In this document: positions 2,539-33,474 of the stretch, piece after piece
How positions within the stretch are numbered: position 1 is the stretch's first letter
Layout: the number at the start of each line of letters is the position of its first letter
Source: a virus
Virus record (IMG/VR): IMGVR_UViG_3300026097_000805
Location: 1-64,000 of that record
Reading direction: 5' to 3' (one strand)
Length of the DNA stretch: 64,000 nt
Position numbers and translations under genes: made by a program
Notes under the pieces: generated by a model
Databases searched by the model: none
The model's input: the letters and a program-made list of their open reading frames with translations, nothing else
Told to the model about the DNA's origin: nothing

Positions 2539-3459
2539 ATGAAAAAATTTAAAGTAATTGACTATGACATCATCTACTTGAGTTATGATGAACCTAATGC
2601 AGAAAAAAATTATGCAGATTTGTGTAGCAAAGTACCATGGGCTAAACGTGTTCATGGTGTAAAAGGATCAGATGCTGCACACAAAGCTTGTGCAGAACTA
2701 AGTGAAACAGATAGATTCATTACTGTCGACGGTGATAATATTGTACACCCTGACTTTTTACAGCAAGAATTAGATTTTGAAGAACACACAGATCTAGAAA
2801 ATTCAGTTATTAGTTGGTGCGGAGTTAATATAATAAACGGGCTCATGTACGGTAATGGTGGGTTAAAGTGTTGGCCGAAAACTCATGTACTTAATATGCG
2901 GACACATGAGAATGCAGATTCTGACAATCCACATGCCCAGGTAGATTTTTGTTGGGATTTAAATTATATACAACAAAACAGCTGGTTTAGTTATGTACAT
3001 AATAATGAAACACCTCAACAAGCGTGGAGAGCAGGTTTTCGCGAAGGTGTAAAAATGGCACTAGATCAGGGTGTAAAACCTACAAAAGAAAATTTTCTTA
3101 ATGGGCATTGGAAAAACTTACATCGTCTTTGGATCTGGTTAATGATAGGCTCTGATGTCAAACACGGCCTTTGGGCAATATACGGTGCAAGACAAGGACT
3201 TTATATGACAATGTGCTCAGATTGGGATTATATAAACGTGCGAGATTTTGATTATCTCAACAACATGTGGAATAATGAAAAACATAAAGAAGATGGACTA
3301 CTAATTCAAATACAAGCACTAGGAAATGATCTCAAGGACGAGCTTGATATACCGATAGATGCTAATCCGTTATTACCCGACCAGAGTAAATTTTTTAAAA
3401 CTGTGTATCAAAATCCCAGTAGAAATCCTAATCAACAATTTATTATAGATCCAGAATGA
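2539..3459 (+). CDS. Glycosyltransferase-like protein, single domain
   Basis: A 306-residue protein with IIYLSYDEPNAEKNY near the N-terminus and ITVDGDNIVHPDF at about residues 61-73, where DGD takes the place of the GT-A DxD. It matches the C-terminal domain of the repeat protein at 13648-15273, which has ISYNEPNADANY, HGVKG and IVDGDAQI in the same order, so the two are homologues of different architecture. The likely role is glycan transfer. It overlaps the following radical-SAM gene by the ATGA junction. Confidence 0.6.
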   Translation: MKKFKVIDYDIIYLSYDEPNAEKNYADLCSKVPWAKRVHGVKGSDAAHKACAELSETDRFITVDGDNIVHPDFLQQELDFEEHTDLENSVISWCGVNIINGLMYGNGGLKCWPKTHVLNMRTHENADSDNPHAQVDFCWDLNYIQQNSWFSYVHNNETPQQAWRAGFREGVKMALDQGVKPTKENFLNGHWKNLHRLWIWLMIGSDVKHGLWAIYGARQGLYMTMCSDWDYINVRDFDYLNNMWNNEKHKEDGLLIQIQALGNDLKDELDIPIDANPLLPDQSKFFKTVYQNPSRNPNQQFIIDPE

Positions 3460-4874
3460 CAGATAAACAAAAAGGAGATGAGGTAAAGCTACTAAAGGGA
3501 AAGTACCAATCACAGTATTTTGAGAGTAGTAAAGACCTTTTACAAGGACTTAATAATGTTAGTCCTAGTTTCTGTTTGGCTAAGTGGTACAGTGTAAGTT
3601 TACATTTACCTACTGGCAAGACACACAGTTGCTATCACCCGCCTGCACATAATATTCCACTAGAAGAATTAAATATAACTCCGGATGCATTACATAATAC
3701 ACAGTATAAAAAACAACAACGTGCTAAAATGCTTAAAGGAGAACGACCTAAAGAGTGTGAGTTTTGTTGGGCATTAGAAGATCAAGGAAATATAAGTGAC
3801 CGTGCATATCGTAGTAAAGATGTATTTGAGCCTGGACTAATCGAAGCTGCACAAGTAGAAGAAAATCCTAAACCCAAATACTTAGAAGTAAACTTTAATC
3901 AAGCCTGTAATTTAAAGTGTGCATATTGTAGTCCACATCTGTCAACAGAGTGGCACAAAGAAGTTAAAAAACATGGTGCATACCATTTAGATGGATTTAA
4001 ACACAATGATCCTCTTTGGGTCGACAATTTAGGTATTAATAATGCTCCAGATAGTCCGTATGTGCAAGCGTTTTGGGAATGGTTTCCTACGGTATATCCT
4101 ACATTAAAAACATTTCGTATGACTGGTGGCGAGCCACTTATGGATAAAAACACATTTCGTGTGTTTGACTATATAAAAAATAATCCTAATAATAAATTGA
4201 ATTTGAGTATTACTAGTAATTGTAGTCCTCCTAAAGGTCAGTGGACTAAATTTATGACTAGTCTAAAAGAAATTACAGATAAAGATGCGATAGATCATTT
4301 CATGTTGTTTTGCAGTCTTGACAGTTGGGGGCCCCAGGCAGAATATATAAGACATGGATTAGACTTTGACGAATTATATAAGAATATTACGCAATATTTA
4401 AGTGAAAGCAAAAACCACAGCTTAACTTTTATTATAACGGCAAATCTGCTAAGTTTACCAGGTTGGTTAGATTATGTCAAAAACATTTTAAAATTGCGTA
4501 AAACTTTTAACACTAATCGACAATTGATCTGGTTTGATACACCTATGCTACATGATCCCAAATGGATGAGTATGAAATTAGCGACACCCGAACTGTTGAA
4601 GCCTTTACAAGACAGTATCGATTACATGGAAGAAAATAAAGAAACTATACATAACAGGTTCAAAGGATTTAAGGACTTTGAAGTAGATAAAGTCAGACGA
4701 CTGTATGAGTGGGCGTCAGAACCGTTAAATACCACACAAGAACTAACAGCAAAGAAGAATTTTGATTTGTTTTTTAAACAGCATGATATTCGTAGAGATA
4801 CTGATATACAAAAAACATTTCCTGAACTAATAACTTTCATAGAAGAATGTGAGGTATTATATAATGAGCGATAA
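3456..4874 (+). CDS. Radical-SAM protein, class A
   Basis: A 472-residue radical-SAM enzyme. The cluster-binding CNLKCAYC lies at residues 151-158, followed by the SAM-binding TGGEP. Ahead of the core is a Cys-rich segment with C40, C59 followed by YHP, and C101-x2-C104, which looks like a SPASM/twitch-like auxiliary-cluster domain moved to the N-terminus. Radical-SAM enzymes cleave SAM reductively to a 5'-deoxyadenosyl radical; the substrate here is unknown. Its closest sister is the next gene, which shares the CYHP variant where most class-A proteins have CC. Confidence 0.85.
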   Translation: MTDKQKGDEVKLLKGKYQSQYFESSKDLLQGLNNVSPSFCLAKWYSVSLHLPTGKTHSCYHPPAHNIPLEELNITPDALHNTQYKKQQRAKMLKGERPKECEFCWALEDQGNISDRAYRSKDVFEPGLIEAAQVEENPKPKYLEVNFNQACNLKCAYCSPHLSTEWHKEVKKHGAYHLDGFKHNDPLWVDNLGINNAPDSPYVQAFWEWFPTVYPTLKTFRMTGGEPLMDKNTFRVFDYIKNNPNNKLNLSITSNCSPPKGQWTKFMTSLKEITDKDAIDHFMLFCSLDSWGPQAEYIRHGLDFDELYKNITQYLSESKNHSLTFIITANLLSLPGWLDYVKNILKLRKTFNTNRQLIWFDTPMLHDPKWMSMKLATPELLKPLQDSIDYMEENKETIHNRFKGFKDFEVDKVRRLYEWASEPLNTTQELTAKKNFDLFFKQHDIRRDTDIQKTFPELITFIEECEVLYNER

Positions 4875-6273
4875 TTATATGAATCGTGTTAAAGAAACCC
4901 GAGACTCATTAAATGAAGTAGGTCCAGGGTTCTGTGCAATGAAATGGTTAAACGAAACACTTTACTTGCAAACAGGGGACAACCATAGTTGCTATCATCC
5001 ACGTCCTCATCATATTCCTTTGCAGGAAATAGAAGAAAATCCAAATGCATTGCACAATACTAAATTTAAAAAATCAGTGCGTAAAGAAATGCTCGAAGGT
5101 AAGCGTCCTGAAGAATGTTATTATTGTTGGAATGTAGAAGACTTAGACGGAGAACACTATTCTGATAGAATGTTTCATAGTGCAAGTAATTGGGTTTCAA
5201 AAGAAGATTTAAATCTTATAAAAAGATCTCATTGGAACGATAACATTAATCCAAGATATTTAGAATTAAGTTTTGGCAATGGCTGCAATTTTTCTTGCGG
5301 TTATTGTTGCCCGCAAGCAAGTAGTCTTTGGGTAGATGAAATTAAAAAATACGGAAATTATGATATATCTTATAATCAATATGGTATAGAATTTCTTAAT
5401 GGTAATTTTTATAATGACAAAGAATACAACCCTTACGTAGAAGCCTTTTGGAAATGGTGGCCTGATCTAGTTAAAGATCTTAAAATTTTGAGAATTACCG
5501 GAGGCGAACCTTTGATGAATTCTAATACGTTTAAAATGTTAGACATGCTAGATGAAACTCCTGCTCCGGATTTAGAAATCAATATGAATAGTAATCTAGG
5601 TGTAACTAATGCTCGTGTTAAAAAATTAAGTAATAAAATAAAGAAGTTAATAAAAGAAAATAAAATTAAAACATTTAAACTCTATACAAGCATTGACGGT
5701 TGGGGAGAGCAGGCTGAATATATGCGTAGAGGATTAAAATGCGATTTATGGGAGAAAAATCTTGATACGTTTATTACGATTACTGAGTCGCCTGTAAATA
5801 TTATGATCACATATAACATCTTAGCAGTAGCAAACTTTAGAGATTTACTTGTTAAAATACTAGAACTTAGAGAAAAATATAATTCTAAAGATAATAGTCA
5901 GCAAATGTTAGGATTTGATACACCGTATTTAAAAGAACCACCTCATTGGATGATTAATCTGCTTCCGGTTGACGAGTTTGGACATTACTTAGATAACGAT
6001 TTAAAGTTTATTAAAGAAAACCTAAGAAATAATGGTAATGATACATTTAAATTTAGTAAACACGAATATGAAAAATTTAAGCGTGTACGTGACTATTTTT
6101 ATCAAGGTGGACAAAAAATTACTTCTGAGTTAATTGAGAGAGGCAGAAAGGATTTTTATAAATTTTTTACTGAATATGATAAACGTAGTAATTTAGATTT
6201 CAAAAAAACCTTTCCTTTATATAAGAAGTTTATGAAAGATTGTGAAAGATTAGTAAATGAGTCTAAGAAATAA
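4864..6273 (+). CDS. Radical-SAM protein, class A, sister of upstream gene
   Basis: A 469-residue radical-SAM enzyme with CNFSCGYC at residues 141-148 and TGGEP downstream. The N-terminal Cys segment has C24, C43-YHP and C85-x2-C88. I chose the ATG at 4864 over an in-frame ATG 15 bases earlier because GAGG at 4851-4854 sits nine bases before it. It overlaps the upstream gene by 11 bases. Length, order of motifs and the CYHP variant make it a tandem paralogue of the 3456-4874 gene. Substrate unknown. Confidence 0.85.
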   Translation: MSDNYMNRVKETRDSLNEVGPGFCAMKWLNETLYLQTGDNHSCYHPRPHHIPLQEIEENPNALHNTKFKKSVRKEMLEGKRPEECYYCWNVEDLDGEHYSDRMFHSASNWVSKEDLNLIKRSHWNDNINPRYLELSFGNGCNFSCGYCCPQASSLWVDEIKKYGNYDISYNQYGIEFLNGNFYNDKEYNPYVEAFWKWWPDLVKDLKILRITGGEPLMNSNTFKMLDMLDETPAPDLEINMNSNLGVTNARVKKLSNKIKKLIKENKIKTFKLYTSIDGWGEQAEYMRRGLKCDLWEKNLDTFITITESPVNIMITYNILAVANFRDLLVKILELREKYNSKDNSQQMLGFDTPYLKEPPHWMINLLPVDEFGHYLDNDLKFIKENLRNNGNDTFKFSKHEYEKFKRVRDYFYQGGQKITSELIERGRKDFYKFFTEYDKRSNLDFKKTFPLYKKFMKDCERLVNESKK

Positions 6274-7441
6274 TAAAACATTTTGTGTATTACCTTGGAT
6301 TCATTTACATTCGAATCCTGATAGCGAAATTAGACCTTGTTGTATAGCAAAAACTGACCAGTATAAGTTTGGTTATTTAAACAACACCACAGTACAAGAA
6401 GCATGGAATAGTAAATCTTATATGCGTGTTCGCAAGAATATGTTAAAAGGAAAGCCTATTCAAGTTTGTGAAAATTGTTATGAGACTGAAAAATATGGTT
6501 CAAACAGTTTACGCAATAATATGAATGAAAAATGGTTAACTACAGATCTTGAATCTACTATACTAACAAATACAGATTCTAAAGGTAGATATAATAGTCA
6601 AGGTCTTTTATACTGGGACATTAGATACAGTAATGTTTGTAACTTTAAATGTCGAATGTGCGGCCCTGCACTTAGCACAAAATGGTACGAAGATGTAGAA
6701 GGATGGAATCATACATTAACTAATATATCCGATATTAAAAGCTGGTGCGATCAAAATAAAGAATATTTAAAAACTTTAAAAGAAATTTATTTTGCAGGCG
6801 GCGAACCTCTAGTTCAGAAGCAGCATTACGAATTTTTAGAATGGTGTATAAAAAATAACATTTATCCTAGTCTTCATTATCAATCAAATGGAAGTAAGTT
6901 AAAATACGGTAAATGGAATATATTTGAACTTTGGAATCATTTTCCAAATGTTGCTTTTAGTCTTAGTTTAGATGCGTTTGGTGCTCTTGGGGAATATATC
7001 AGAACTGGATATATTGATAATGTTGTTAAAGACAATATGAATAGAATACTAGATTTTATGGGAAGTAATCATAGTATTTTAATAAACAGTACATGGCAGT
7101 TATACAACTCTTATTATATGACTGAGTTTTTTGACGAAGTAGATACTTACAAATGGGTGTTAAATAATAATAATTATACACAATTATTAATTAATCCTGA
7201 ATATCTACAACCTAAAGTTTTACCTGCTGAGCTTAAAAAAACAGCAATAAAAAAAATAGAAACAAGTAAATGGTTTAATATATACCCTAATAAATTTGAG
7301 TCGGTGCTTAATAACCTTAAAGAAGAAAGTTCACAGTTACAATGGAAAAAATTTGTTAAATACTCTAAGAACTTAGATAATATTAGAAAAGAATCATTAG
7401 TTGATGTCTTTCCGGAATTAAGGAAATATTATGAATCTTAG
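6257..7441 (+). CDS. Radical-SAM protein, class A
   Basis: A 394-residue radical-SAM enzyme. The N-terminal segment reads FCVLPWIHL, then CC at residues 28-29, then WNS...R...ML and C71-x2-C74, the standard class-A layout. The radical-SAM cluster motif CNFKCRMC is at 128-135 and AGGEP follows. It overlaps the upstream gene by 17 bases and the downstream gene by 11. The GxxRPCC...CxxC pattern resembles SPASM/twitch auxiliary-cluster ligands, but placed before rather than after the core. No substrate can be inferred. Confidence 0.85.
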   Translation: MSLRNNKTFCVLPWIHLHSNPDSEIRPCCIAKTDQYKFGYLNNTTVQEAWNSKSYMRVRKNMLKGKPIQVCENCYETEKYGSNSLRNNMNEKWLTTDLESTILTNTDSKGRYNSQGLLYWDIRYSNVCNFKCRMCGPALSTKWYEDVEGWNHTLTNISDIKSWCDQNKEYLKTLKEIYFAGGEPLVQKQHYEFLEWCIKNNIYPSLHYQSNGSKLKYGKWNIFELWNHFPNVAFSLSLDAFGALGEYIRTGYIDNVVKDNMNRILDFMGSNHSILINSTWQLYNSYYMTEFFDEVDTYKWVLNNNNYTQLLINPEYLQPKVLPAELKKTAIKKIETSKWFNIYPNKFESVLNNLKEESSQLQWKKFVKYSKNLDNIRKESLVDVFPELRKYYES

Positions 7442-8603
7442 ATGTGTTAATTTAGAATCTGGATTAAGAATTGAAAACGATGGAACATGTAAATCGTGTT
7501 GCATGATGAAAGATAAATTTTGGAAAACCAAAAGAGAAAAATATAATTTGTATTCAGATACATTCGATGATATAATGAAATCTAAAGCAAGACGTAAAAT
7601 AGTAAAGGCATTAGAAAAAGGCGAAAAACACCCTGCGTGTCAGCGTTGCTGGGACGAAGAAGCAACTGGCAAGAAAAGTAAACGTCTAAGAGATAATGAA
7701 ACATTTATAGATACTAAGCCTGGTACTGTACAGATTATTGATGTTAGTATGGGTACACAATGTAACATTAAGTGTAGAACTTGTGGTCCTTTTAACAGCA
7801 GTTTTTGGAATAATGAATGGTTTGATACAGGCTACTTTGGCGGAACTAAAGAAGAGTACAAGTCCTATTTAAAGCGTCTAAATTGTGCTTTTGACGATGA
7901 TAGTAGTTTTTGGGATCAATTTAAACAAAATTTAAAAAATACGTTACACATTGATTTTTATGGAGGCGAGCCTTTTTTAGTCAAAAAGCAATGGAATATG
8001 TTAGAATATGCTATAGAACACGGATATAGTAAAGATATTGCAGTTCATTATAATACAAATGGTACTATATGGAATGACAGTGTATATGATATTCTTAAAG
8101 AATTTAAAGCTGTTTATATAGATTTTAGTATTGACGGAGTATACGATAAATTAACATACATTAGGTATCCTGCAAAATGGGATACAGTTTACAATAATCT
8201 TCTCAAACTAAAGGAAGTATCGGATAAAGATACTAAGTTTAAAATTAATATTTGTAATACAATTAGTATTTTAAATGTCTATTATATTCCAGAAATGTAT
8301 GAAGTATTTGCCGAGTTAGGTAATTCTATGTATTTAAATTTAGTATTCGGTCCTGATTATTACTGTATAAAAAATATACCTAAGCCTATAAAAAAAGAAA
8401 TTACTCAACATTTAGAAAACAGTGAAGAGCGTTATTGGACAACTAGTATTCTTAATTTTATGAATGGTAATAAAGACAATCCTAAAGAATGGGAAAGATT
8501 TTTAAAAATAACTAAAAAACACGACGAGTACAGAGGACAATCATTTAAAGAAATATTTCCTGAATTTTACGATATTATAAAAAAGAACGGATTTAGCCTA
8601 TGA
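7431..8603 (+). CDS. Radical-SAM protein, class A
   Basis: A 390-residue radical-SAM enzyme with CNIKCRTC at residues 111-118 and YGGEP downstream. The N-terminal domain has C5, C20, CC at 23-24 and C70-x2-C73. The usual FCxxPW opening is shortened to LRCVNLESG, so this copy is slightly divergent at its N-terminus. It is joined to the next gene by the ATGA overlap. Assigned to the same family as its neighbours; substrate unknown. Confidence 0.82.
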   Translation: MNLRCVNLESGLRIENDGTCKSCCMMKDKFWKTKREKYNLYSDTFDDIMKSKARRKIVKALEKGEKHPACQRCWDEEATGKKSKRLRDNETFIDTKPGTVQIIDVSMGTQCNIKCRTCGPFNSSFWNNEWFDTGYFGGTKEEYKSYLKRLNCAFDDDSSFWDQFKQNLKNTLHIDFYGGEPFLVKKQWNMLEYAIEHGYSKDIAVHYNTNGTIWNDSVYDILKEFKAVYIDFSIDGVYDKLTYIRYPAKWDTVYNNLLKLKEVSDKDTKFKINICNTISILNVYYIPEMYEVFAELGNSMYLNLVFGPDYYCIKNIPKPIKKEITQHLENSEERYWTTSILNFMNGNKDNPKEWERFLKITKKHDEYRGQSFKEIFPEFYDIIKKNGFSL

Positions 8604-9820
8604 AGAATTTTACCTGGAAAGAATCTAAAGTAACACATATGCACATAGAGTTATCTAATTTTTGTAATGCAGCATGTCCGTTTTGTCCTAGGTATGTAGA
8701 TAGCACTGCAAGAGTTAGACCAGAGTTACAATTGAATTCTATAACACTAGAACAATTTAAAAAATGGTTTCCTTTAAATTTTATGAAAAGTGTAGAGCGT
8801 ATTTTATTTTGTGGAACACACGGCGATCCACTGATGGCAAAGGATGTTATAGAAATTATAGATTATATACAAACGTCATCACCAAAGTGTACCATACAAG
8901 TGAACACTAATGGAGGCATGCGATCTCCTGAATTTTTTAGAGCATTAGGAAAAAAATTAGTTGAGCATGGAACTAATCATAAAGTAGTTTTTAGTATAGA
9001 CGGGTTAAAAGATACAAATCATTTATACAGAAGAAATGTAAAGTGGGAAAAACTTATAGAAAACGCAATAGCTTTTAACAGTACCGGTGCTCGGGGTCTG
9101 TGGGAATATCTTATTTTTGAACACAACGAGCATCAATTAGAAGAAGCCAAACAATTATCAGAAGAATTAGGGTTTTATGATATAAAATTTAAAAAAGCAT
9201 TAGGTTTTGATCCTAATAAGTCAGGGCAATTAAAAGCTAGAGGAGTGTATGATAAAAATGGCGATCTAGAGTACATCATAAGTCCGCCTAGTGACCAGTC
9301 AATGATAAACTCGTCGTGTGTGCCAAACAGTGTAGATAAAAATGTTAAGACCTCAAAAGACATAACATACTTAAAAGACTTTAAACCCGGAGTAAATCCT
9401 ATTGTCGAAAGCAAAGTAGCTAATTTTGACGAGGCAAAAATACCACATTGGAACACTTATATTAAACAGTTTGAAAACAGTGCTATAAATTGTAAAAGCT
9501 GTGTTAAGTCAAAATCGTCAGAAATTTATGTAAGCTGTGACGGTATTGTATTTCCTTGTTGTTTTATAGGAACACGAGTTGATAGTGCAATAGATTTGTA
9601 CGAAGATACACAATTAAGACATCATATAAAACAGTTTGGTAAAGATAAATTTGATTTAAAAAAGACTTCTATTAAAAAAATTATAAAACGGGGCTATTTA
9701 GACAGTGTGTATACGGACAGTTGGGATAAAGAGTCATATACTAACGGTAAACTTTCTTATTGTGCAATGACCTGTGGAAATAATAGTGAGATAGATAGGA
9801 TTTACGATAGAGATGATTGA
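8600..9820 (+). CDS. Radical-SAM/SPASM protein, class B
   Basis: A 406-residue radical-SAM enzyme of the second class. CNAACPFC starts at residue 22, almost at the N-terminus, with no Cys-rich domain before it. The conserved block IDGLKDTNHLYRRN and the HNEHQ motif define the class. The C-terminus carries SPASM-like cysteines: INCKSC, then FPCC, then CAMTCG. Such domains usually hold auxiliary Fe-S clusters used in peptide or sugar oxidation. It is followed immediately by an SGNH hydrolase, one of several class-B genes paired with a small enzyme. Confidence 0.85.
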   Translation: MKNFTWKESKVTHMHIELSNFCNAACPFCPRYVDSTARVRPELQLNSITLEQFKKWFPLNFMKSVERILFCGTHGDPLMAKDVIEIIDYIQTSSPKCTIQVNTNGGMRSPEFFRALGKKLVEHGTNHKVVFSIDGLKDTNHLYRRNVKWEKLIENAIAFNSTGARGLWEYLIFEHNEHQLEEAKQLSEELGFYDIKFKKALGFDPNKSGQLKARGVYDKNGDLEYIISPPSDQSMINSSCVPNSVDKNVKTSKDITYLKDFKPGVNPIVESKVANFDEAKIPHWNTYIKQFENSAINCKSCVKSKSSEIYVSCDGIVFPCCFIGTRVDSAIDLYEDTQLRHHIKQFGKDKFDLKKTSIKKIIKRGYLDSVYTDSWDKESYTNGKLSYCAMTCGNNSEIDRIYDRDD

Positions 9821-13647: not shown

Positions 13648-15273
13648 ATGTATGATATTGTTTTTATTGGTCCTAAGAACGACGAATGGATAAAACTTAA
13701 AAGTCGATTTATCACAGCAAAACATGCTGAATCGTTTGAACAGGCACGATCCATTGTTTTTACAAAAATGTTTTGGGTTATATGGCCCGACGTTGATGTT
13801 TGTGATAACTTTAAGTTTGATTATCGTGCAGATGAATGGAGTCAAGATTACATTCACACATTTTTAAACGGCGACACTCATGATGGCATAATACTTGTAC
13901 CTAAACGTGCTGAAATAGCAGAACGTGAATTACGTCATAGATTCTTTATAAACAAAAAAGAAGTAGACATAGTAGCAAGTACACCTAAGCCGTTTGACTT
14001 GTACTACGTAGACACCTGGGAAGACTACGAATATGCACTTGAGAACAGCTCAACAGAAATGTTTTGGGCAGTTTCGCATAATCTAAAATACAGCATGTCA
14101 TACATAAACAATTTTTATTTTAGTCACCACAATAGCTACGACAGAAAGGAAAATCATGCATTTGTACATGAAGTTAATGGAAAGAAATTATATAATGGAG
14201 TATTCCTGTGTTCGAGAAACAAGCCGCTAAACAAAAAAGAGATAGAATATAGATTTCTTGTAAATGCAAAACAGTGGAACGACGTAGTTAGCGGCCCAAG
14301 ACAGTATGACATATTTACAATAGATACATATGAAGATTATGAGTATGCATTAAAAAATAGTTCGACAGAAATGTTCTGGTTAGTACCTTCTCATGTACAA
14401 ACAAAAGATAATTTTAAGTTTGACTTGTATTTCAGCCACGATAACAAATACGATAGAAATATTAATCACGTATTCCTAAATGGCAAATATCATGACGGAA
14501 TTATCTTGTGCAGTAAAACAGCAGAAATATCTAAAAAAGAGTTTGATTACAAATTTTTAACTAATAAGAAAGAAGTAGATACAATTGCTAGTACGCCTAA
14601 ACCTTACGACATTGTATTCATTAGCTATAACGAGCCAAACGCAGATGCTAACTATGCTGCTTTACAACAGCATTTTCCAAGAGCAAAGCGTATACACGGA
14701 GTAAAAGGAATACACCAAGCACATATCGCCGCTGCCGAGCTCTGTGATACCGATATGTTTTGGATTGTAGATGGAGATGCGCAAATAGCAGATGGTTTTA
14801 ATTTTGATTTTCAATCTCCAACGTGGCAGAGAGATAATGTGTATGTGTGGAGAAGTATAAATCCAATCAACGACTTGGTGTATGGCTATGGTGGAATAAA
14901 ACTGTTTCCAAGAAAAGAAACTCTCAACATGGATACTTCAAAACCTGATATGACCACAAGTATCAGTTCAAAGTTTAATGCCATGCCACAAATATCAAAT
15001 ATAACAGCATTCAACACTGATCCATTTAACACTTGGAAAAGCGCATTTAGGGAATGTGCTAAATTAAGTAGTAAAGTAATTGACAGACAAAAGGAAGATG
15101 AAACAAATGCAAGACTCGAAACTTGGACAACCGTGGGACACGATAGAAACTTTGGTGAGTATGCGATACGAGGTGCTAGGGCTGGTATGGAGTTTGGCCT
15201 TTCTCAGCGGGATAATCTGGGGCTAATTAACGACTTTGATTGGCTAGAGGAGAAGTTTAATGAACAATATTGA
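13648..15273 (+). CDS. Repeat protein with C-terminal glycosyltransferase-like domain
   Basis: A 541-residue modular protein. Modules of about 100 residues start near residues 2, 116, 220 and 319. The first three repeat the pattern DxxEDYEYAL, SSTEMFW, FSHxNxYDR, HDGI, KKE and STPKP, with the first copy the most degenerate. The last module is a transferase-like domain with ISYNEPNADANY, RIHGVKG and IVDGDAQI (DGD near 375), homologous to the 2539-3459 gene. The repeats may bind glycan or place the catalytic domain. It overlaps the following methyltransferase-like gene by 14 bases. Confidence 0.65.
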   Translation: MYDIVFIGPKNDEWIKLKSRFITAKHAESFEQARSIVFTKMFWVIWPDVDVCDNFKFDYRADEWSQDYIHTFLNGDTHDGIILVPKRAEIAERELRHRFFINKKEVDIVASTPKPFDLYYVDTWEDYEYALENSSTEMFWAVSHNLKYSMSYINNFYFSHHNSYDRKENHAFVHEVNGKKLYNGVFLCSRNKPLNKKEIEYRFLVNAKQWNDVVSGPRQYDIFTIDTYEDYEYALKNSSTEMFWLVPSHVQTKDNFKFDLYFSHDNKYDRNINHVFLNGKYHDGIILCSKTAEISKKEFDYKFLTNKKEVDTIASTPKPYDIVFISYNEPNADANYAALQQHFPRAKRIHGVKGIHQAHIAAAELCDTDMFWIVDGDAQIADGFNFDFQSPTWQRDNVYVWRSINPINDLVYGYGGIKLFPRKETLNMDTSKPDMTTSISSKFNAMPQISNITAFNTDPFNTWKSAFRECAKLSSKVIDRQKEDETNARLETWTTVGHDRNFGEYAIRGARAGMEFGLSQRDNLGLINDFDWLEEKFNEQY

Positions 15274-15961
15274 ATGGCAAGACGATAAAGATATCTACGG
15301 CCGGCTGCTTATTTTAACTGGCAATCCGTTATTCAATAATTTACGCAATGCTGTAGATAACCATAATGCTGATTTATCCGATGCACTATCGTGGGGACAG
15401 CTCAAAAGCAAACGATGGATAATCGACGAATTGGAAAAATTAGATATTTCTTTGGGTACTGTTTATATATGTGCAGGGTGGTACGGTACACTTGCTGCTA
15501 TGCTGTTTAATAGTAAGTGCAATATAGAAAAAATAAGAAGTTTTGACATAGACAATAATTGTTTAGAAATAGCCGATTGTATTAATCGTCTACAAGTAAA
15601 AGACGGATGGAAATTTAAAGCAATTACACAGAATATACACGACATTGATTATAAAAAACATATTTGGCAAACATGGAGCAAAGCCAACAATAGATTGAGC
15701 TATCCTATTGAAGACATACCTGATACGATTATTAACACCAGCTGTGAACACATAGAAAATTTCGCAGAATGGTATGATAAAATTCCAGATGGCAAGTTAG
15801 TAATTCTACAAAGCAATAACTACTATGACATAGAGGATCATGTAAATTGTGTGGCAGGACCTCTAGAGTTTGCAGAACAGTCGCCCATGGCCCGGGTCCT
15901 ATATCAAGGTGCCCTAGAATTACCCAAATATACGAGGTTTATGAGAATTGGAAGAAAATAA
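15260..15961 (+). CDS. SAM-dependent methyltransferase-like protein
   Basis: A 233-residue protein with a class I methyltransferase layout. YICAGWYGTLA (residues 69-79) stands at motif I and FDID (95-98) at the acidic end of strand 2, with INTSCEHI further on. The glycine motif is atypical, so enzymatic function is inferred. GAGGAGAAG precedes the ATG. Its last bases overlap a TTG start of the next gene. The final 41 bases of this region recur at 17273-17313 as part of a rearrangement scar. Confidence 0.5.
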   Translation: MNNIEWQDDKDIYGRLLILTGNPLFNNLRNAVDNHNADLSDALSWGQLKSKRWIIDELEKLDISLGTVYICAGWYGTLAAMLFNSKCNIEKIRSFDIDNNCLEIADCINRLQVKDGWKFKAITQNIHDIDYKKHIWQTWSKANNRLSYPIEDIPDTIINTSCEHIENFAEWYDKIPDGKLVILQSNNYYDIEDHVNCVAGPLEFAEQSPMARVLYQGALELPKYTRFMRIGRK

Positions 15962-15964
15962 AAA
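15924..15964 (+). repeat. Direct repeat copy 1 (methyltransferase tail and TTG start)
   Basis: This 41-base stretch matches 17273-17313 with a single mismatch. It covers the last codons of the methyltransferase-like gene, the GAGG ribosome site and the TTG start of the next radical-SAM gene. The repeat marks a tandem duplication of this gene junction. Confidence 0.9.
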
Positions 15965-17177
15965 AGCTCCTATTTGTTTATTTCCGTTTTACGCATTATA
16001 TTATAGGGGAGACGATCAAAAAATAGGAAGTTGTTGTTTGCAAACCCCTTTGCCAAGCAAGATGAAAGGAGATGATATTTACACTTGGTTTACAAGTGAT
16101 GACGCAATCAAGATAAGACAACAATTTATGGACGGTGAATGGCCAGATAGTTGTAAAATTTGTATGAACGCGGAAAATTCTAACGTCAAAAGCTACAGAC
16201 AACGCTGGGAACATAATTTGTTTAAAGCAGGAGCATGCTATGATGATTTGGATGTAGAAAAAGGCAATAGTACAGGTCATGCTTTTTTTACAGATCTTAG
16301 ACCTGACAACTTTTGTAATTTAAGCTGTTCTATGTGTAATCCAGGGGCAAGTAGTAAAATTGAACAAATGGTAAAAGATCTAGATATAAGCGTGTGGGGT
16401 GACCCAGAACGCAAGCAAGAATTTACAGCTATCAATACACTCAAAACAGCTATTACTAAGCACACTAAAAGATTAAAACTTAATGGCGGCGAACCTACTA
16501 TAAATAACAAAATTAAAAGTCTATATCAGTACTCTATTGACAACGACTTTGCAAAAAATATTGAATTGCAGTTTACAACTAATTTTACTAATTATAATAA
16601 AACTTTTCAGATGCTTGATAATTTTAAAAGTGTAATTGTGACAGCTAGTTTAGATGGAACCAGAGACACATACAATTATATTCGAACCCCTGCTAAATGG
16701 AACACTACTAAAAAAAATATAATTAAATTCAAAGAACAAATGGATGCTAGACGTGATATATTTAATTTTGGTGTAAACACTGTATGGTATGTCGCCACAG
16801 CTTTTACGGTAGATGATTGGCTTCCTGAATTGTTGGATTTTTTCAATAAACATTTTCCTCATAAAGCAGGATCGAAAAATCAGTATATTCATGTAAACCA
16901 AGCACAGAATCCTATATGGCAAAATCTTTCTATTATTCCTCCCGAATACAGAGACGATATTTATGAAAACATAGAACGATATCGATCGCAAGATAGATAC
17001 GCACATCAACGAGAAAGATGTATGGATCAATTAATTTTTGGACTAGATAATTTCCAGTTCAATCCAGAAAATTTGCGCACTTGGCAAGAATTAAATCCTA
17101 AAATGGACGCTTATAAAAAAGTTGATATTACTACACTTCACCCTAGATTTAAAGACCTAATGAATTATAATGTATAA
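15948..17177 (+). CDS. Radical-SAM protein, class A, duplicated copy 1
   Basis: A 409-residue radical-SAM enzyme starting at a TTG inside the last codons of the upstream gene. The N-terminal segment has C10, CC at 29-30 and C69-x2-C72; the core motif CNLSCSMC is at 123-130 and NGGEP follows. The ending HPRFKDLMNYNV is nearly identical to that of the gene at 17297-18499, and both open with MEENK, so the two are tandem duplicates. It overlaps the scar ORF at 17170 by 8 bases, as its sister overlaps a complete class-B gene. Confidence 0.85.
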   Translation: MEENKKAPICLFPFYALYYRGDDQKIGSCCLQTPLPSKMKGDDIYTWFTSDDAIKIRQQFMDGEWPDSCKICMNAENSNVKSYRQRWEHNLFKAGACYDDLDVEKGNSTGHAFFTDLRPDNFCNLSCSMCNPGASSKIEQMVKDLDISVWGDPERKQEFTAINTLKTAITKHTKRLKLNGGEPTINNKIKSLYQYSIDNDFAKNIELQFTTNFTNYNKTFQMLDNFKSVIVTASLDGTRDTYNYIRTPAKWNTTKKNIIKFKEQMDARRDIFNFGVNTVWYVATAFTVDDWLPELLDFFNKHFPHKAGSKNQYIHVNQAQNPIWQNLSIIPPEYRDDIYENIERYRSQDRYAHQRERCMDQLIFGLDNFQFNPENLRTWQELNPKMDAYKKVDITTLHPRFKDLMNYNV

Positions 17178-17310
17178 ACTAGAAGAAGTTTTCGGCAAGA
17201 TGGGTGCTGTTATTTTCAGCGTTGACGGCCTACGGGACACTAATCATATATATCAAAGAGAGTTAAAATTATCCAAATACACGAGGTTTATGAGAATTGG
17301 AAGAAAATAA
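17170..17310 (+). pseudogene. Recombination-scar ORF: class-B fragments fused to methyltransferase tail
   Basis: A 46-codon open frame made of three pieces. The first five codons match the start of the class-B gene at 18492. Codons from about 6 to 28 match codons in the middle of that gene (71 bases, two mismatches, against 18827-18897). The end, YTRFMRIGRK, matches the C-terminus of the methyltransferase-like gene at 15961. It therefore looks like the remnant of a tandem duplication followed by internal deletion. It still ends over the TTG start of the next gene and may work as a coupling leader. Confidence 0.85.
17184..17254 (+). repeat. Repeat of mid class-B radical-SAM gene, scar copy
   Basis: These 71 bases equal 18827-18897 apart from two C/T differences. 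In the intact gene the segment encodes VFGKMGAVIFSVDGLRDTNH. The near identity at synonymous sites indicates a recent copy. Confidence 0.92.
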
Positions 17311-17313
17311 AAA
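17273..17313 (+). repeat. Direct repeat copy 2 (methyltransferase tail and TTG start)
   Basis: Second copy of the 41-base junction at 15924-15964, one mismatch. It rebuilds the GAGG site and the TTG start for the duplicated radical-SAM gene at 17297. Confidence 0.9.
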
Positions 17314-18499
17314 CAAATCGATAGTATGTCTGTTACCTTTCTATGCCATTTATTTTAGTGGTCGTCATGGAAAAATGGGCTCGTGTTGTCTACAAAAACC
17401 TCTTACATCTAGTTTAAAAAAAGACAGTATTGCTAGTTTTTGGAAAAGTGAAGAACAACAAAAGATACGAAAAATGTTTATAAAAGGAGAATGGCCTGAC
17501 AGTTGTTCTATATGTAAAAAACAAGAACAAAGCGGCGTACTTAGTTATAGACAACAGTGGAACGATAATTTTATGACTCGTATTGGAGCTACTGAAGAGG
17601 ATATCGATATAGAATACGGTAACCCGTATAAAGAACCTATATATTTAGATTATAGACCTGATAATATGTGTAATTTATCTTGTACTATGTGTAATCCTGA
17701 TAATGCTAATAAAATAGAAAAAATGGCCAAAGATTTAGATTTAAATCTATGGGATCTATCTGGCGAAGATGCTGATTATAATGCTGAAGAATTTATTAAA
17801 ACTATTTCAAAGAATACTCGACGCATAAAACTAAATGGTGGCGAACCTACAATAAGTAAAAAAATACATAAAATTTTTGATTATTTAATACATAAAGGTT
17901 ATTCAAAAAATATCGAATTACAATTTACTACAAATTTTACAAACTATAACAAAACATTCGAGTTATTAAAGGAATTTAAGACTGTAAGAGTATCTGCTAG
18001 TTTAGACGGTACAAGTGATACTTATGAATATATCAGAAGTCCTGCTAAATGGAAAAAAATTACAGAAAATATTTTAAAATTTGTACAAGACAGAAAACAT
18101 TTTGATAATCGATTTGCTGTTAATTCAGTATGGTTTAGTGCCACTGCGTTTACTATAAAAGACTGGGTACCAGAACTGCTAGATTTTATTGATGAGAATT
18201 TTGAAGAAAAAATCCTCATTCATATGAACCAGTGCCAAAAACCTGCTTGGCAGAATCTTAGTATTATTCCTAATGAATTTAGAAGTGAGATATATAAAGA
18301 TATTGAAGATCTAAAACTTAAATATCCTAAATATTTAAAAATGTTTCAAGCTATGAAATTTGGATTGGATAACTATGCGTTCAATAAGGATAATTTAAAA
18401 ATATGGCAGGACATAACTCCTAAAACAGATGCTTATAGAAAAACAGATATTACAAAGCTCCATCCGAGATTTAAAGACCTAATGGATTATAATGTATAA
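17297..18499 (+). CDS. Radical-SAM protein, class A, duplicated copy 2
   Basis: A 400-residue tandem paralogue of the gene at 15948-17177. N-terminal cysteines are C11, CC at 30-31 and C70-x2-C73; the core motif CNLSCTMC is at 125-132, followed by NGGEP. It has the same TTG start and the same overlapping GAGG context as its sister. The two proteins have diverged clearly, while the flanking repeats have not, so the flanks may have been homogenised by recombination. The end overlaps the class-B gene at 18492. Confidence 0.85.
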   Translation: MEENKNKSIVCLLPFYAIYFSGRHGKMGSCCLQKPLTSSLKKDSIASFWKSEEQQKIRKMFIKGEWPDSCSICKKQEQSGVLSYRQQWNDNFMTRIGATEEDIDIEYGNPYKEPIYLDYRPDNMCNLSCTMCNPDNANKIEKMAKDLDLNLWDLSGEDADYNAEEFIKTISKNTRRIKLNGGEPTISKKIHKIFDYLIHKGYSKNIELQFTTNFTNYNKTFELLKEFKTVRVSASLDGTSDTYEYIRSPAKWKKITENILKFVQDRKHFDNRFAVNSVWFSATAFTIKDWVPELLDFIDENFEEKILIHMNQCQKPAWQNLSIIPNEFRSEIYKDIEDLKLKYPKYLKMFQAMKFGLDNYAFNKDNLKIWQDITPKTDAYRKTDITKLHPRFKDLMDYNV

Positions 18500-19565
18500 A
18501 CTAGAAGATATAAAAACAATTCATTTAGAAATTACGCAAAATTGTCAGGCTAGCTGTCCTATGTGCGATAGGAACATGAATGGCGAAGGTGTCAATCCTC
18601 ATATCAACCTCGATGAACTTTCGCTAGACGATTGTAAACTGATATTTCCTCCGGAGTTTATCGCACAGTTGAAAACAATGTATATGTGTGGAAACCTAGG
18701 TGATCCTATTGTAGCACGAGATACATTAGAAATATTTCGATACTTTAGAGAACACAATCCAAGCATGTGGTTGAGCATGAACACAAACGCAGGAGCAAGA
18801 GATGAAGAATGGTGGAGAGAACTTGCAGAAGTTTTCGGCAAGATGGGTGCTGTTATTTTCAGCGTTGATGGCCTACGGGATACTAATCATATATATCGTC
18901 AAGGTGTGAACTGGGACAGAGTTGAAACATCTATGCGAGCATTTACCAGCGCCGGGGGTAGAGCTCGTTGGGATTTCCTAGTATTTGAACATAATCAGCA
19001 TCAAATAGAACAAGCAGAACGACTAGCCGATGAATGGGGCTTTGAAAAGTTTATTGCTAAAAAGACAGGAAGATTTGTCACGGCAAAAACAGATGCTAAA
19101 GAAAAACACCAAGCAAAAGATAGAAAGGGTAAGGAGACTACAGAACTTAAAAAACCCGATCTTAAATATCAAAACCGCGCTCTTACTAAACAAGATAAAC
19201 TTATTGAGAAGTATGGGTCTATGGATGCTTACTACGATGCTGCTCCTATCCGATGTAAAGTAAAAGAGGAAGGCAGTCTTTTTATAACAGCCGAAGGACT
19301 AGCATTACCTTGCTGTTGGACAGCTGGTCGTATGTATAAGTGGTGGCACAAGGATCCTCGTGTAGAACAAATATGGGACCATATAGGCGATAAATCTAGT
19401 ATTGATGCTAGGCAAGGATTAGATCAAGTATTTGCTACAGGTATTTTTGACAGTATAGAATCTAGTTGGAACATGTCAAATTGTAGTGAAGGAAAATTAA
19501 AAGTTTGTGCTACTAAATGCGGAACAGAATGGGACCCATTTAGCGAACAATTTACAAAGGAATAA
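18492..19565 (+). CDS. Radical-SAM/SPASM protein, class B
   Basis: A 357-residue radical-SAM enzyme with CQASCPMC at residues 18-25. The class block VDGLRDTNHIYRQ and HNQHQ follow, and SPASM-like cysteines lie at the C-terminus (PCCW, then CATKCG). Between them is a charged Lys-rich stretch. This is the intact parent of the fragments found in the scar ORF. It is followed one base later by a 2-oxoglutarate/Fe(II) oxygenase-like gene, forming a radical-SAM/oxygenase couplet. Confidence 0.85.
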   Translation: MYKLEDIKTIHLEITQNCQASCPMCDRNMNGEGVNPHINLDELSLDDCKLIFPPEFIAQLKTMYMCGNLGDPIVARDTLEIFRYFREHNPSMWLSMNTNAGARDEEWWRELAEVFGKMGAVIFSVDGLRDTNHIYRQGVNWDRVETSMRAFTSAGGRARWDFLVFEHNQHQIEQAERLADEWGFEKFIAKKTGRFVTAKTDAKEKHQAKDRKGKETTELKKPDLKYQNRALTKQDKLIEKYGSMDAYYDAAPIRCKVKEEGSLFITAEGLALPCCWTAGRMYKWWHKDPRVEQIWDHIGDKSSIDARQGLDQVFATGIFDSIESSWNMSNCSEGKLKVCATKCGTEWDPFSEQFTKE

Positions 19566-19566
19566 C

Positions 19567-20139
19567 ATGGCTGAAACTTTTTATAAAATAAAAAACTTTC
19601 CAAAGGATATAAAACAAGAATTATGCGAAGCCTGGTCGGAAAATAAATGGCAAGAAATAAAAGAAGTGCTCACTAACAGGATGTGGCATTATTGTTTAAA
19701 TTATGATCATAAACTTTCTACATATTTTGAGGCAGAATGTTATATAGAATATTATGTTGTCAGTAGTGGATGTTCGAATAGGCCTCATTTAGATCGAGGT
19801 AGATTGTGTGCTATTAATGTTCCAATTGAAGTAGACTATGAAAATAGTTTTTTCTTTTGCGGAAAATATATGAGACTAGGATTATACAAAGAAGATGTAT
19901 TACAAACAACATCATATGGTCACAAAGCAAAATATAAAGGACGAAACGGATTTTATGTCTATCAAGATAAAATGTTTGAAACATATAATCTAGAAGATCC
20001 TGTTATATTTTCCACTAAAATACCGCACGGAGGAAACAACATTGCTGGCAAGACTCCTAGGGTAATAGCAAGTGTCGGATTTCCTAATGACACATACGAG
20101 CAAGTATTGAATAACTTACCTAACGAGTGGTTTGAATGA
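19567..20139 (+). CDS. 2-oxoglutarate/Fe(II) oxygenase-like protein
   Basis: A 190-residue protein with the 2OG/Fe(II) facial triad in sequence: HLD (H74, D76) in RPHLDRGR and H154 in PHGGNN, with R165 as probable 2-oxoglutarate ligand. Such enzymes hydroxylate or desaturate a substrate using O2. The ATG at 19567 is chosen because AAAGGA precedes it; upstream in-frame codons overlap the class-B gene. It is a paralogue of the protein at 21137, and the two flank another class-B radical-SAM gene. Confidence 0.65.
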   Translation: MAETFYKIKNFPKDIKQELCEAWSENKWQEIKEVLTNRMWHYCLNYDHKLSTYFEAECYIEYYVVSSGCSNRPHLDRGRLCAINVPIEVDYENSFFFCGKYMRLGLYKEDVLQTTSYGHKAKYKGRNGFYVYQDKMFETYNLEDPVIFSTKIPHGGNNIAGKTPRVIASVGFPNDTYEQVLNNLPNEWFE

Positions 20140-21137
20140 GTTTTTACAAATTACCGTTAAGCTATATTCATATTGAACTTACTACTAGATGTAATGCGGC
20201 ATGTCCAATGTGTCTTAGAAATATAAACGGAGACATGAAAAATCCATATTTGAAGTTAGATGACTTTGATATCAAATGGTTAGATAAAATAGATATTCCA
20301 GTTGGAAAAAAAGTACAGTTATGCGGTAATTATGGAGATCCAATAGTCTATCCCCATTTATTTGATTTTATTAAAGCATGGAAAGAAAAGTTTAACACTC
20401 CTATTACAATAATGACTAACGGGGGAGCAAGAAATACTGATTGGTGGAAAGAATTGGCTGAGATATTAGATAACAGGTGTAAGGTTGTATTTGGTATCGA
20501 CGGATTAGAAGATACCAACCATCTTTATCGTAGAAATGTAAAATGGAACAAACTAATGGAAAATGCTAAGGCTTTTATAGACGCTGGCGGCAGAGCATGG
20601 TGGAAGTTTATAGTTTTTAAACATAATCAACATCAAATAGAAGATGCTAAAATATTAGCCAAAAAAATGAAGTTCGAAAGTTTTGAAAAATTAAAAACTA
20701 ATAGATTTGATAGAGGAGTTTTGCCTGTACTGGATAAAAACGGAAACAATCTGTATAATATATATGAGCCAAATATTTCAAAAAAAGGATTTTTGGATAA
20801 AAACCCTTACAGAGCAGTAGCTAATAAAGACCCTGCTAGAGTAAAAATAGATTGCTATGCTAAAAAAGAATCTAGCATGTACATCGCAGCAGACGGCCGA
20901 GTGTATCCTTGCTGTAATACAGGATATCATTATAGTGGACCTAATCGAATAGAAATGGAAATAGCACAAGAAACACAAACTCCCTACAGTCTAACTAATA
21001 GCAAAGTATCAGAAATCATAAATGGCGATTTTTTTAGAGGATTTGAAAAAACTTGGACTTCTACTCCATATAAAAAATGTCACAGGGTATGTGGTTATAA
21101 AAGAGGAATTCTCCATAAAATAGAGGATCTTAAATAA
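20136..21137 (+). CDS. Radical-SAM/SPASM protein, class B
   Basis: A 333-residue radical-SAM enzyme: CNAACPMC at residues 19-26, IDGLEDTNHLYRRN, then HNQHQ, then C-terminal SPASM-like cysteines (PCCN and the CHRVCG end). It is joined by ATGA to the upstream oxygenase, and its stop overlaps the downstream oxygenase start by a single base. The order oxygenase, radical-SAM, oxygenase suggests successive steps on one substrate. Confidence 0.85.
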   Translation: MSFYKLPLSYIHIELTTRCNAACPMCLRNINGDMKNPYLKLDDFDIKWLDKIDIPVGKKVQLCGNYGDPIVYPHLFDFIKAWKEKFNTPITIMTNGGARNTDWWKELAEILDNRCKVVFGIDGLEDTNHLYRRNVKWNKLMENAKAFIDAGGRAWWKFIVFKHNQHQIEDAKILAKKMKFESFEKLKTNRFDRGVLPVLDKNGNNLYNIYEPNISKKGFLDKNPYRAVANKDPARVKIDCYAKKESSMYIAADGRVYPCCNTGYHYSGPNRIEMEIAQETQTPYSLTNSKVSEIINGDFFRGFEKTWTSTPYKKCHRVCGYKRGILHKIEDLK

Positions 21138-21733: not shown

Positions 21734-23131
21734 ATGAAAGAAATATCACCCACATTCTGCGCATTGCCGTGGCTACATCTTTCCAGTCGACCTGATGGAA
21801 AAATGAGAACCTGTTGTACATCAAACGCAAGCTCGGTCCAAGATCCAGACTCTAACAAAAAAGTAGGCGGAGGAGAAGTTGGCGTAGTAAAAAACGATGA
21901 CGGTATTCCGGCGAACTTTAATCACACCAGTCTCGAAGATGCTTGGAACAGTGCCTATATGCGTAATGTTCGCAAGATGATGTTGCGTGGTGAAAAACCA
22001 GCTAGTTGTTTAAAATGCTACAAAGAAGAAGAAGCAGGACATCGCAGTAAGAGAAATTGGGAAACGGAGTACTGGGGTAAAAGATATGATCTACAACAGT
22101 TAGTGGACGAAACACAAGAAGACGGAAGCACTCCTCCTAAGATACGCTATATTGATCTTAGAATGGGAACAAAGTGCCAACTAGCATGTGTTATGTGCTC
22201 ACCTCACGATAGTTCGGGGTGGGTTAAAGAATGGAATGAAATTTATCCTAATCTACAAAACGAAAAATTAAAACAAACAAGCGGATGGGATAATAAAGGT
22301 CGCAATCACGGCGCAAGTTATAATTGGCACAAAAACAATCCTCGATTCTGGAATGAGCTAATGGATCAAGTGCCTCATATGTATCAATTATATTTTGCTG
22401 GTGGAGAAAGTCTAATAATAGACGAACACTACGACTTGTTAGAGGAATGTATAAAACGAGGACATGCTAAAAATATAGAACTAAGATATAATTCAAATGC
22501 TGTAGAATGGCGTGATGACTTATTTGATTTATGGGCAGAGTTTAAGCGTGTAAGATTTCACTACAGTATAGATGCCCATGGAAGACAAAATGATTACATT
22601 AGATATCCTAGTCGTTGGGAACATCAAGAAGAAGTTTTTCATATTTTAGATAACACAACTGACAATGTAGAGATAACAACAGCAACAACACTTATGGCAT
22701 TGAATATTGCTTATATACCTGAGTTTATTCGTTGGAAAGTTGGACAAAACTTCCGTAAAATAAACAAATGGCCTCTAGGAGCAGGCGGTGTAAACATGCA
22801 TTTTGCCTATTGGCCACCACAACTAAATGTAAAAGTCCTGCCACAGGATATCAAACAACAGATTACAGAAAAGTATGAAAATGATTTTTATCCGTGGGTA
22901 GAAGATAATTGGGAAAAGTTTACAGGAGTGAAGGAAGCTGGTATTGATAAAGAAACTTTCTTAAAAGCAGATTATGGAATTCCTAGATACAAAGGTATCA
23001 TAAATTTTATGAATGCCGAAGACTGGAGCGCCAGAATGCCTGAATTTAAAGAATGGGTAAACAAGCTCAATCACACTAGAGGTTTTGACGATTTCGAAAA
23101 AATATTTCCTATATTCAAAGGATATCTATGA
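21734..23131 (+). CDS. Radical-SAM protein, class A
   Basis: A 465-residue radical-SAM enzyme. The N-terminal domain has FCALPW, CC at 27-28, WNS and C92-x2-C95, and carries a Gly/charged insertion at about residues 35-55. The core CQLACVMC is at 148-155 and AGGES stands where GGEP is usual. It lies directly behind a TATAAATA box. It overlaps the next class-A gene by ATGA. Substrate unknown. Confidence 0.85.
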   Translation: MKEISPTFCALPWLHLSSRPDGKMRTCCTSNASSVQDPDSNKKVGGGEVGVVKNDDGIPANFNHTSLEDAWNSAYMRNVRKMMLRGEKPASCLKCYKEEEAGHRSKRNWETEYWGKRYDLQQLVDETQEDGSTPPKIRYIDLRMGTKCQLACVMCSPHDSSGWVKEWNEIYPNLQNEKLKQTSGWDNKGRNHGASYNWHKNNPRFWNELMDQVPHMYQLYFAGGESLIIDEHYDLLEECIKRGHAKNIELRYNSNAVEWRDDLFDLWAEFKRVRFHYSIDAHGRQNDYIRYPSRWEHQEEVFHILDNTTDNVEITTATTLMALNIAYIPEFIRWKVGQNFRKINKWPLGAGGVNMHFAYWPPQLNVKVLPQDIKQQITEKYENDFYPWVEDNWEKFTGVKEAGIDKETFLKADYGIPRYKGIINFMNAEDWSARMPEFKEWVNKLNHTRGFDDFEKIFPIFKGYL

Positions 23132-24456
23132 TAGACAAAGATAAATTCTGTGTAGTTCCTTTTGTACAACTTAATACTCGCGGCAAAGGTGATGCCAGAG
23201 TTTGCTGTAGTATAGGAGGCATTGACCATGGCATACCAAAAGATCTAGTGCTTGACGAAATCAACCCAGACACATATAATTCAAACACAGAAGTTTTTAA
23301 CTTAGGATCTGACAATATTACAGATTTGTGGAATTCCAAGTTTATGAAAGATTTTCGTATGAAAATGCTCAATGGAGAAAACATACCCAATTGCGAATTC
23401 TGCCATAGAATGGAAGCAGGCGGACTCACGTCAAAAAGAATAGGAAAAAATAGTAGATTCCTTGAAAGAACTCTACCACTGCTTGAAAAATATAAAGAAA
23501 AGAATGGTTATGTTGATGTTATGCCACAATGGTGGGAAATTAGACTTTCAACTAAGTGTAATCTAAGTTGTATTATGTGTACTCCTGGATTAAGCAGTAT
23601 GATGTATAAAGAATACAATAAATGGGAAAAGCAAGGAACCATTGCTGATATAATGAAAGGAAGTCTAGATATAGCAAAAGAAAGCGGAGAAGAGTATCTG
23701 TCAAAAAGTGAATTTTTCCGCAACCAAATTTTAGATAATTTAGACCATTGTCTCTTTATGGAATTTCGAGGCGGCGAAGTTTTTTCCGATGTAGACAGTA
23801 TAAGATTTATTGAAGAAATTAGTAAAACACCCCAAGCAAAAAATATACAACTAGATATCAGCACAAATGCTACTTTGTTAGATAATAAAATAGTAGAAAT
23901 ATTAAATAGATTCGCCGGAGGTACTCTCCGCTATAGTATTGACTCATTCCACAAAGAAGATGAGCTTATAAGATATCATACAAAGTGGACTGATGTTATT
24001 GCTAGCATGGATACTTGTTTAAATCTTCATAACGATTGGAGATTTTTAACTCAAACTACACTACAAATGTTAAATTGTCTTTCTATGGACAAGCTAATTG
24101 TGTTTTTAAACGAATACATTGAGAAAAATAATCTAGATAGATTTTGGCTAGGATTTACTACGGTAAGGGGTAAAGATTATCTTAGACATGAAATGGTCAC
24201 TAATGAATTAAGAAATCAACAGATAAAAAAATTAGAATTATTAAAAACAAAATTATATATTTTTACAAAACATAAAAACAAAGAGATTTATCTAAAAAGT
24301 TTAGATATGCTTATAAACACACTTAAAACCCAAGAATATAATAATAATGACTTAAGATACAAAGCAAAATATTATTTTGAAAGTCTTAACGCAAATAGAG
24401 GTATTGACTATTTCGATTCTTTTAAACATCTAAAAGAGAGCGTAGAACCAAAATGA
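23128..24456 (+). CDS. Radical-SAM protein, class A
   Basis: A 442-residue radical-SAM enzyme. N-terminal domain: FCVVPF, CC at 26-27, LWNS, C89-x2-C92. Core: CNLSCIMC at 144-151, then RGGEV in place of GGEP, and a YSIDSF strand. The C-terminus is Lys/Leu-rich and probably helical. It is followed through an ATGA overlap by a Rossmann-fold reductase-like gene, which may act on the same product. Confidence 0.83.
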   Translation: MIDKDKFCVVPFVQLNTRGKGDARVCCSIGGIDHGIPKDLVLDEINPDTYNSNTEVFNLGSDNITDLWNSKFMKDFRMKMLNGENIPNCEFCHRMEAGGLTSKRIGKNSRFLERTLPLLEKYKEKNGYVDVMPQWWEIRLSTKCNLSCIMCTPGLSSMMYKEYNKWEKQGTIADIMKGSLDIAKESGEEYLSKSEFFRNQILDNLDHCLFMEFRGGEVFSDVDSIRFIEEISKTPQAKNIQLDISTNATLLDNKIVEILNRFAGGTLRYSIDSFHKEDELIRYHTKWTDVIASMDTCLNLHNDWRFLTQTTLQMLNCLSMDKLIVFLNEYIEKNNLDRFWLGFTTVRGKDYLRHEMVTNELRNQQIKKLELLKTKLYIFTKHKNKEIYLKSLDMLINTLKTQEYNNNDLRYKAKYYFESLNANRGIDYFDSFKHLKESVEPK

Positions 24457-33453: not shown

Positions 33454-33474
33454 AGAATATGTTATATTAATAGT

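Follow-up and report, generated by a model that had tools for sequence, protein, structure and literature searches.

The stretch at 6257-8603 consists of two overlapping genes (6257-7441 and 7431-8603) inside a run of radical-SAM genes, and both gene products carry a twitch domain in front of the radical-SAM core. As judged from sequence comparison, this N-terminal block shares its ancestry with the twitch found at the C terminus of other radical-SAM enzymes, and the domain order of these class A proteins is permuted relative to the class B proteins encoded in the same cluster. We consider it likely that the class A proteins are radical-SAM enzymes with an N-terminal twitch, an auxiliary cluster and a swapped domain order, acting in a pathway shared with class B.

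The window, i.e., the whole stretch of DNA that was analyzed, covers 64,000 nucleotides (positions 1 to 64,000) of the virus record IMGVR_UViG_3300026097_000805. The record is that of a marine phage and is 179,647 bases long, with 23 PF04055 matches record-wide. Thirteen genes of the record score above the cut-off of NCBIfam NF033640 (N_Twi_rSAM; curated at 170 bits) and are referred to as class A (twitch before radical-SAM core). Class B comprises six genes in the window (8600, 18492, 20136, 27625, 30012, and 37205), with a second set of cysteines at the C terminus of the proteins. Class B gene 8600-9820 follows directly after 7431, just beyond 6257-8603, and serves as the comparison gene. 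The genes, named by their first position, and the domains discussed below are:

3456-4874, plus strand: class A gene (NF033640 over cut-off)
4849-6273, plus strand: class A gene (NF033640 over cut-off)
6257-7441, plus strand: class A gene with twitch, radical-SAM core and C-terminal helical extension, 394 aa (NF033640, E 1.1e-103, 347.4 bits over 1-398/398)
6284-6481, plus strand: N-terminal twitch of 6257, aa 10-75, with C10, C28, C29, C71, and C74 (PF13186, E 3.2e-11; match to the C-terminal twitch of BtrN)
6626-7048, plus strand: radical-SAM core of 6257, aa 124-264, CxxxCxxC at C128/C132/C135 (PF04055 over cut-off; aligns to solved radical-SAM enzymes, Z ~12)
7196-7438, plus strand: C-terminal helical extension of 6257, aa 314-394, without cysteines, P314 and P323 conserved (alignment A3; helices in the model)
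7431-8603, plus strand: class A gene, 390 aa, 4-base overlap with class B gene 8600 (NF033640, E 4.3e-92; PF13186)
7443-7652, plus strand: N-terminal twitch of 7431, aa 5-74 (PF13186, E 1.5e-5)
8600-9820, plus strand: class B gene with radical-SAM core, then C-terminal twitch, 406 aa (full-length alignment with SuiB, BlsE, SkfB, DesII, MoaA, and BtrN)
9491-9775, plus strand: C-terminal twitch region of 8600, aa 298-392, with C298, C320, C321, C388, and C392 (cysteine positions; hhalign)
15948-17177, plus strand: class A gene (NF033640 over cut-off)
17297-18499, plus strand: class A gene, overlaps class B gene 18492 (NF033640 over cut-off)
18492-19565, plus strand: class B gene (second cysteine set C-terminal)
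20136-21137, plus strand: class B gene, C-terminal SPASM/twitch at aa 243-316 (above Pfam cut-off; class A N-domain profile, E 2.5e-5)
21734-23131, plus strand: class A gene, top NF033640 score of the genome (419 bits)
23128-24456, plus strand: class A gene (NF033640)
25018-26265, plus strand: class A gene (NF033640)
26262-27638, plus strand: class A gene, overlaps class B gene 27625 (NF033640)
27625-28728, plus strand: class B gene (second cysteine set C-terminal)
30012-31124, plus strand: class B gene (second cysteine set C-terminal)
31093-32205, minus strand, opposite to the other genes listed: class A gene with an uncertain start codon (NF033640)
34553-35776, plus strand: class A gene (NF033640)
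37205-38107, plus strand: class B gene, C-terminal twitch at aa 220-300 (class A N-domain profile, E 4.3e-6)
38649-39689, plus strand: class A gene (NF033640)

The phage cluster also encodes a radical-SAM protein with a B12-binding domain (35760-37205). Two further radical-SAM proteins, encoded at 32254-34590, belong to neither class and have relatives in 17 scanned sources.

Cysteine pattern and identity of the N-terminal domain

The cysteines of 6257 are C10, C28, C29, C71, and C74, followed by C128/C132/C135 of the core, and those of 7431 are C5, C23, C24, C70, and C73, followed by C111/C115/C118. In 8600, CxxxCxxC (C22/C26/C29) comes first and the second set (C298, C320, C321, C388, and C392) comes last. 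The order which an earlier note had read from the DNA, with an N-terminal block before CxxxCxxC in class A and the equivalent cysteines last in class B, is thus the one we find. The ordered pattern C-X17/18-C ... CxxC ... CxxxCxxC is present in all class A proteins of the window (13/13) and in none of the class B proteins (0/6). It was absent from 44 other long ORFs and from 13,000 shuffled versions of class A proteins.

The details given in that note fit 6257 better than 7431. In 6257, FCxxPW, RPCC, and WNS all occur as written, whereas 7431 reads RCVNLE, KSCC, and MKSK. Likewise, the stated gap of about 50-60 residues between CxxC and CxxxCxxC applies to 6257 (54 residues), while 7431 has 38 and the family 36-64. 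Over 106 class A proteins C10, C71, C74 and the core residues C128, C132, and C135 are invariant, and C28 is found in 104 of them. The spacing is 18 for C10-C28 and 3 for C71-C74, each in 105 of the 106 proteins, and the second cysteine of the CC pair is absent in 4 of the 13 class A proteins of the window. The class A family alignment has four N-domain cysteines called invariant and one near-invariant.

Domain identity was computed with several profile methods. The Pfam SPASM model (PF13186) covers aa 10-75 of 6257 from end to end (E 3.2e-11) and matches aa 5-74 of 7431 (E 1.5e-5). At E 0.01 it matches 86 of the 106 class A relatives, all of which match PF04055 at the same threshold. A family profile of the 106 class A proteins (A3) was searched against all solved structures, and its positions 5-79 match residues 163-239 or 183-257 of BtrN in two entries (E 4e-8 and 2e-8, respectively). 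Residues 163-239 are the C-terminal twitch domain of BtrN. The N-domain alignment alone gave a modest match to BtrN (E 1.7e-4), with all four cysteines on BtrN cysteines. A single N-domain sequence of 88 aa matched nothing meaningful in the PDB, so a profile is needed to see the relationship.

The SPASM domain is described as a seven-cysteine motif, CX9-15GX4C-gap-CX2CX5CX3C-gap-C, with two auxiliary clusters (PMC6231123). This motif is absent from the class A N-domain, whose four invariant cysteines identify it as a twitch rather than a complete SPASM domain. The cysteines of 6257 lie in BtrN register, and the model has a hairpin (16-19/24-26) and helices as in a twitch.

The N-domain profile also recognizes C-terminal twitch domains in 25 other radical-SAM proteins, including two in the window (20136 and 37205), with the best match in a bacterial protein (L126, E 2.4e-13). 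It matched only 1 of 649 non-radical-SAM ORFs, and that ORF may be a cut-off class A gene. With hhalign, the class A N-domain matches the class B C-domain with a probability of 96% (E 3e-9), versus 3% for the class B core used as control. The four cysteines could in principle bind zinc, and weak zinc-finger matches were seen, although ranked below BtrN. Yet the Pfam SPASM match, the BtrN register, the hhalign result and the cross-recognition of C-terminal twitch domains make a zinc site or a structural knuckle with no relation to the twitch so improbable that we consider this reading ruled out. The same four lines of evidence bear out the earlier description of the block as SPASM/twitch-like, narrowed to a twitch.

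Domain order and its possible origin

Both proteins were modeled with high scores (pLDDT 94.1 and pTM 0.91 for the AlphaFold model of 6257; pLDDT 93.9 and pTM 0.92 for the predicted model of 8600). The class B model aligns over its full length with SuiB, BlsE, SkfB, DesII, MoaA, and BtrN (Z 15-18.5). The class A model aligns to similar enzymes mainly over the core (residues ~107-357, Z ~12), as expected from an order swap when a sequential aligner is used; such a core-only alignment says nothing on where the twitch packs against the barrel. BtrN is not among the best 50 VIA-align matches listed for class A, which is no evidence that the folds differ. To other phage proteins the class A model aligns over its full length (TM 0.60-0.85), and a BFVD fold search with class A returned proteins of Vibrio phages KVP40 and phi-pp2 (TM ~0.60-0.65).

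The homology between the class A N-domain and the class B C-terminal twitch means that the domain order is swapped between the classes, and as the order inside the twitch domain is unchanged, the domain moved as a whole. Among 396 radical-SAM proteins the twitch is in front of the core in 245, behind it in 106 and not detected in 45, and in none of the 396 is there a twitch on both sides. The proposal that class A is circularly permuted is borne out in so far as the same domains occur in opposite order in class B, and for the order only.

In a tree of 67 cores, the N-twitch label needs two changes as compared to 21.8 when the labels are shuffled. Constraining the N-twitch cores to a clade gave a tree whose log likelihood lies 19.7 units above that of the free tree found (p-AU 0.815), both being from a quick search with long branches. 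In the free tree one C-twitch pair (L131/L135) is placed among the N-twitch rows. This clustering of the core sequences is consistent with a single origin of the N-twitch cores, and the order of the two domains would apparently have been swapped once, long ago.

How the swap came about can be pictured in two ways. One real possibility is domain shuffling and not circular permutation, in which a foreign twitch was added before a twitch-less core and packs elsewhere on the barrel. The class A proteins do have a C-terminal helical extension of their own where C-twitch enzymes carry the twitch, and the cores of the two classes resemble each other only distantly, at 15% identity. The modules are also mobile, as seen from a TPR-core-twitch gene (L122:5887-7371) located beside TPR-twitch-core genes. 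However, no protein has a twitch on both sides of one core, as expected if the domain was moved and not added, and with a pTM of 0.91 the domain seems to be packed against the core in a fixed manner, though the score does not tell where.

The other route, possible but rather doubtful, is fusion in a tandem array followed by trimming, by which the core encoded by one gene acquired the C-terminal twitch of the overlapping gene before it. Overlaps of a few bases are common among the radical-SAM genes, 49 of 104 class B genes have a class A gene as immediate neighbor, and a natural fusion of 840 aa (L043:13938-16457) has two class A units arranged as twitch-core-twitch-core. Such a tandem fusion, together with the many overlapping neighbor genes, would offer a simple if conjectural route to the swapped order. 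But this fusion joins two class A units and may thus be recent and unrelated to the origin, and a core-twitch-core intermediate was not found.

Proposed chemistry, gene neighborhood and substrate

The CxxxCxxC motif of the core would bind the [4Fe-4S] cluster that cleaves SAM to give the 5'-deoxyadenosyl radical. From the four N-terminal cysteines C10, C28, C71, and C74 we infer one auxiliary [4Fe-4S] cluster, which is expected to be fully cysteine-ligated. This cluster might take an electron from the substrate radical, as in BtrN, or relay electrons. In BtrN the auxiliary cluster accepts the electron of the substrate radical in an oxidation (PMC9012708), and an electron-accepting role in class A is suggested by this analogy.

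Class A genes abut 49 of the 104 class B genes, and the pair 7431-8600 was found again in ~20 viral loci. The frequent adjacency and overlap of genes from the two classes make it probable that the encoded proteins work in a common pathway. The overlapping pairs and tandem fusions could also mean that the N-twitch of one class A enzyme serves the core of its neighbor as well. We find this very unlikely; if true, the array would operate as a series of radical enzymes whose subunits have auxiliary clusters in common.

The neighboring genes in the window encode UDP-glucose dehydrogenase-like, 2OG oxygenase, aspartyl-hydroxylase-like, acetyltransferase and aminotransferase proteins. In a Bacteroidetes MAG (L095) a class A gene overlaps a carbamoyltransferase gene, with PhyH oxygenases and an NAD epimerase nearby. 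With such neighbors in phage and Bacteroidota, a radical-based modification of surface sugars suggests itself, and we tentatively put forward the tailoring of sugars or surface glycans as the likeliest pathway. In published pelagimyophage genomes the cassettes of radical-SAM genes are located in the region for host recognition, together with glycosyltransferase genes whose presumed target is lipopolysaccharide (PMC7029224). The window itself has two genes (2539-3459 and 13648-15273) of a family with a DGDN stretch, perhaps glycosyltransferases, that is found in 49 scanned sources together with the cassettes; neither gene has a Pfam or PHROG match, which counts against the sugar reading.

It is less probable that the substrates are peptides or proteins, as in RiPP-like or tail-fiber modification, and not sugars. 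Peptides are frequent substrates of SPASM and twitch enzymes (PMC6231123), 2OG oxygenases co-occur, and the Elusimicrobia relatives carry fused TPR arrays, as might be expected if the substrate is a protein. On the other hand, no precursor peptide was noticed in an incidental view of the window, and the PDB match of the N-domain is BtrN, a sugar-alcohol enzyme. We thus keep sugars or glycans as our tentative choice.

Comparison with known radical-SAM systems

The order with the twitch before the core is already recognized by the curators of NCBIfam and is thus not new. All 13 class A proteins match NF033640, named "twitch domain-containing radical SAM protein" (212-419 bits), as do all 106 class A relatives, and the domain order is identical, whereas the class B proteins score under the cut-off. 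We read N_Twi as N-terminal twitch, based on the model name and the match position. In a literature search made mostly outside subscription journals we found no paper on N_Twi_rSAM or naming an N-terminal SPASM or twitch domain, and a review describes both as C-terminal extensions (PMC9012708). The twitch-before-core enzymes are thus known to curators and seem otherwise unstudied.

At E 1e-5 the only isolated phages matching class A are Vibrio phages K566/K567, next to a marine single-virus contig. Close relatives of many radical-SAM genes of the window, with 80% identity to 21734, occur on a contig recorded under the Rickettsiales MAG MED657 (L092); the contig could be of phage origin and have been binned with the MAG. 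An Elusimicrobia MAG (G006; L121, L122, and L123) has ~48 N_Twi_rSAM matches over the cut-off among the matches listed. Many of these proteins are 500-1200 aa long with TPR arrays before twitch and core, and their genes are in tandem with overlapping ends. The gene L122:5887-7371 of this genome encodes TPR, radical-SAM core and C-terminal SPASM and adjoins TPR-twitch-core genes, so that both domain orders are found side by side in TPR-bearing proteins of one bacterium.

Large sets of radical-SAM genes have been described in T4-like marine phages. According to the available text of these papers, phage TARA_ERS488813_N000010 has 12 radical-SAM genes (PMC5332604), compared with 23 matches in the record studied here, and pelagimyophage cassettes carry many radical-SAM genes in a variable region (PMC7029224), as here. 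Domain order is not discussed in the available text of either. Marine phages hold many such enzymes, with both orders in one gene cluster, and we found none that has been characterized. As a family in which the twitch precedes the core, and for which one origin fits the data, these enzymes provide a natural experiment on whether the auxiliary cluster has to occupy one place relative to the SAM cluster.

The class B proteins of the same cluster share with class A a radical-SAM core and one twitch-like domain, and their genes are often adjacent, but their twitch is C-terminal. Among solved structures, the butirosin dehydrogenase BtrN (PDB 4m7s and 4m7t) resembles class A in having a twitch with four cluster cysteines in matching register. 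The twitch of BtrN is C-terminal, while class A instead has an N-terminal twitch and a helical extension after the barrel.
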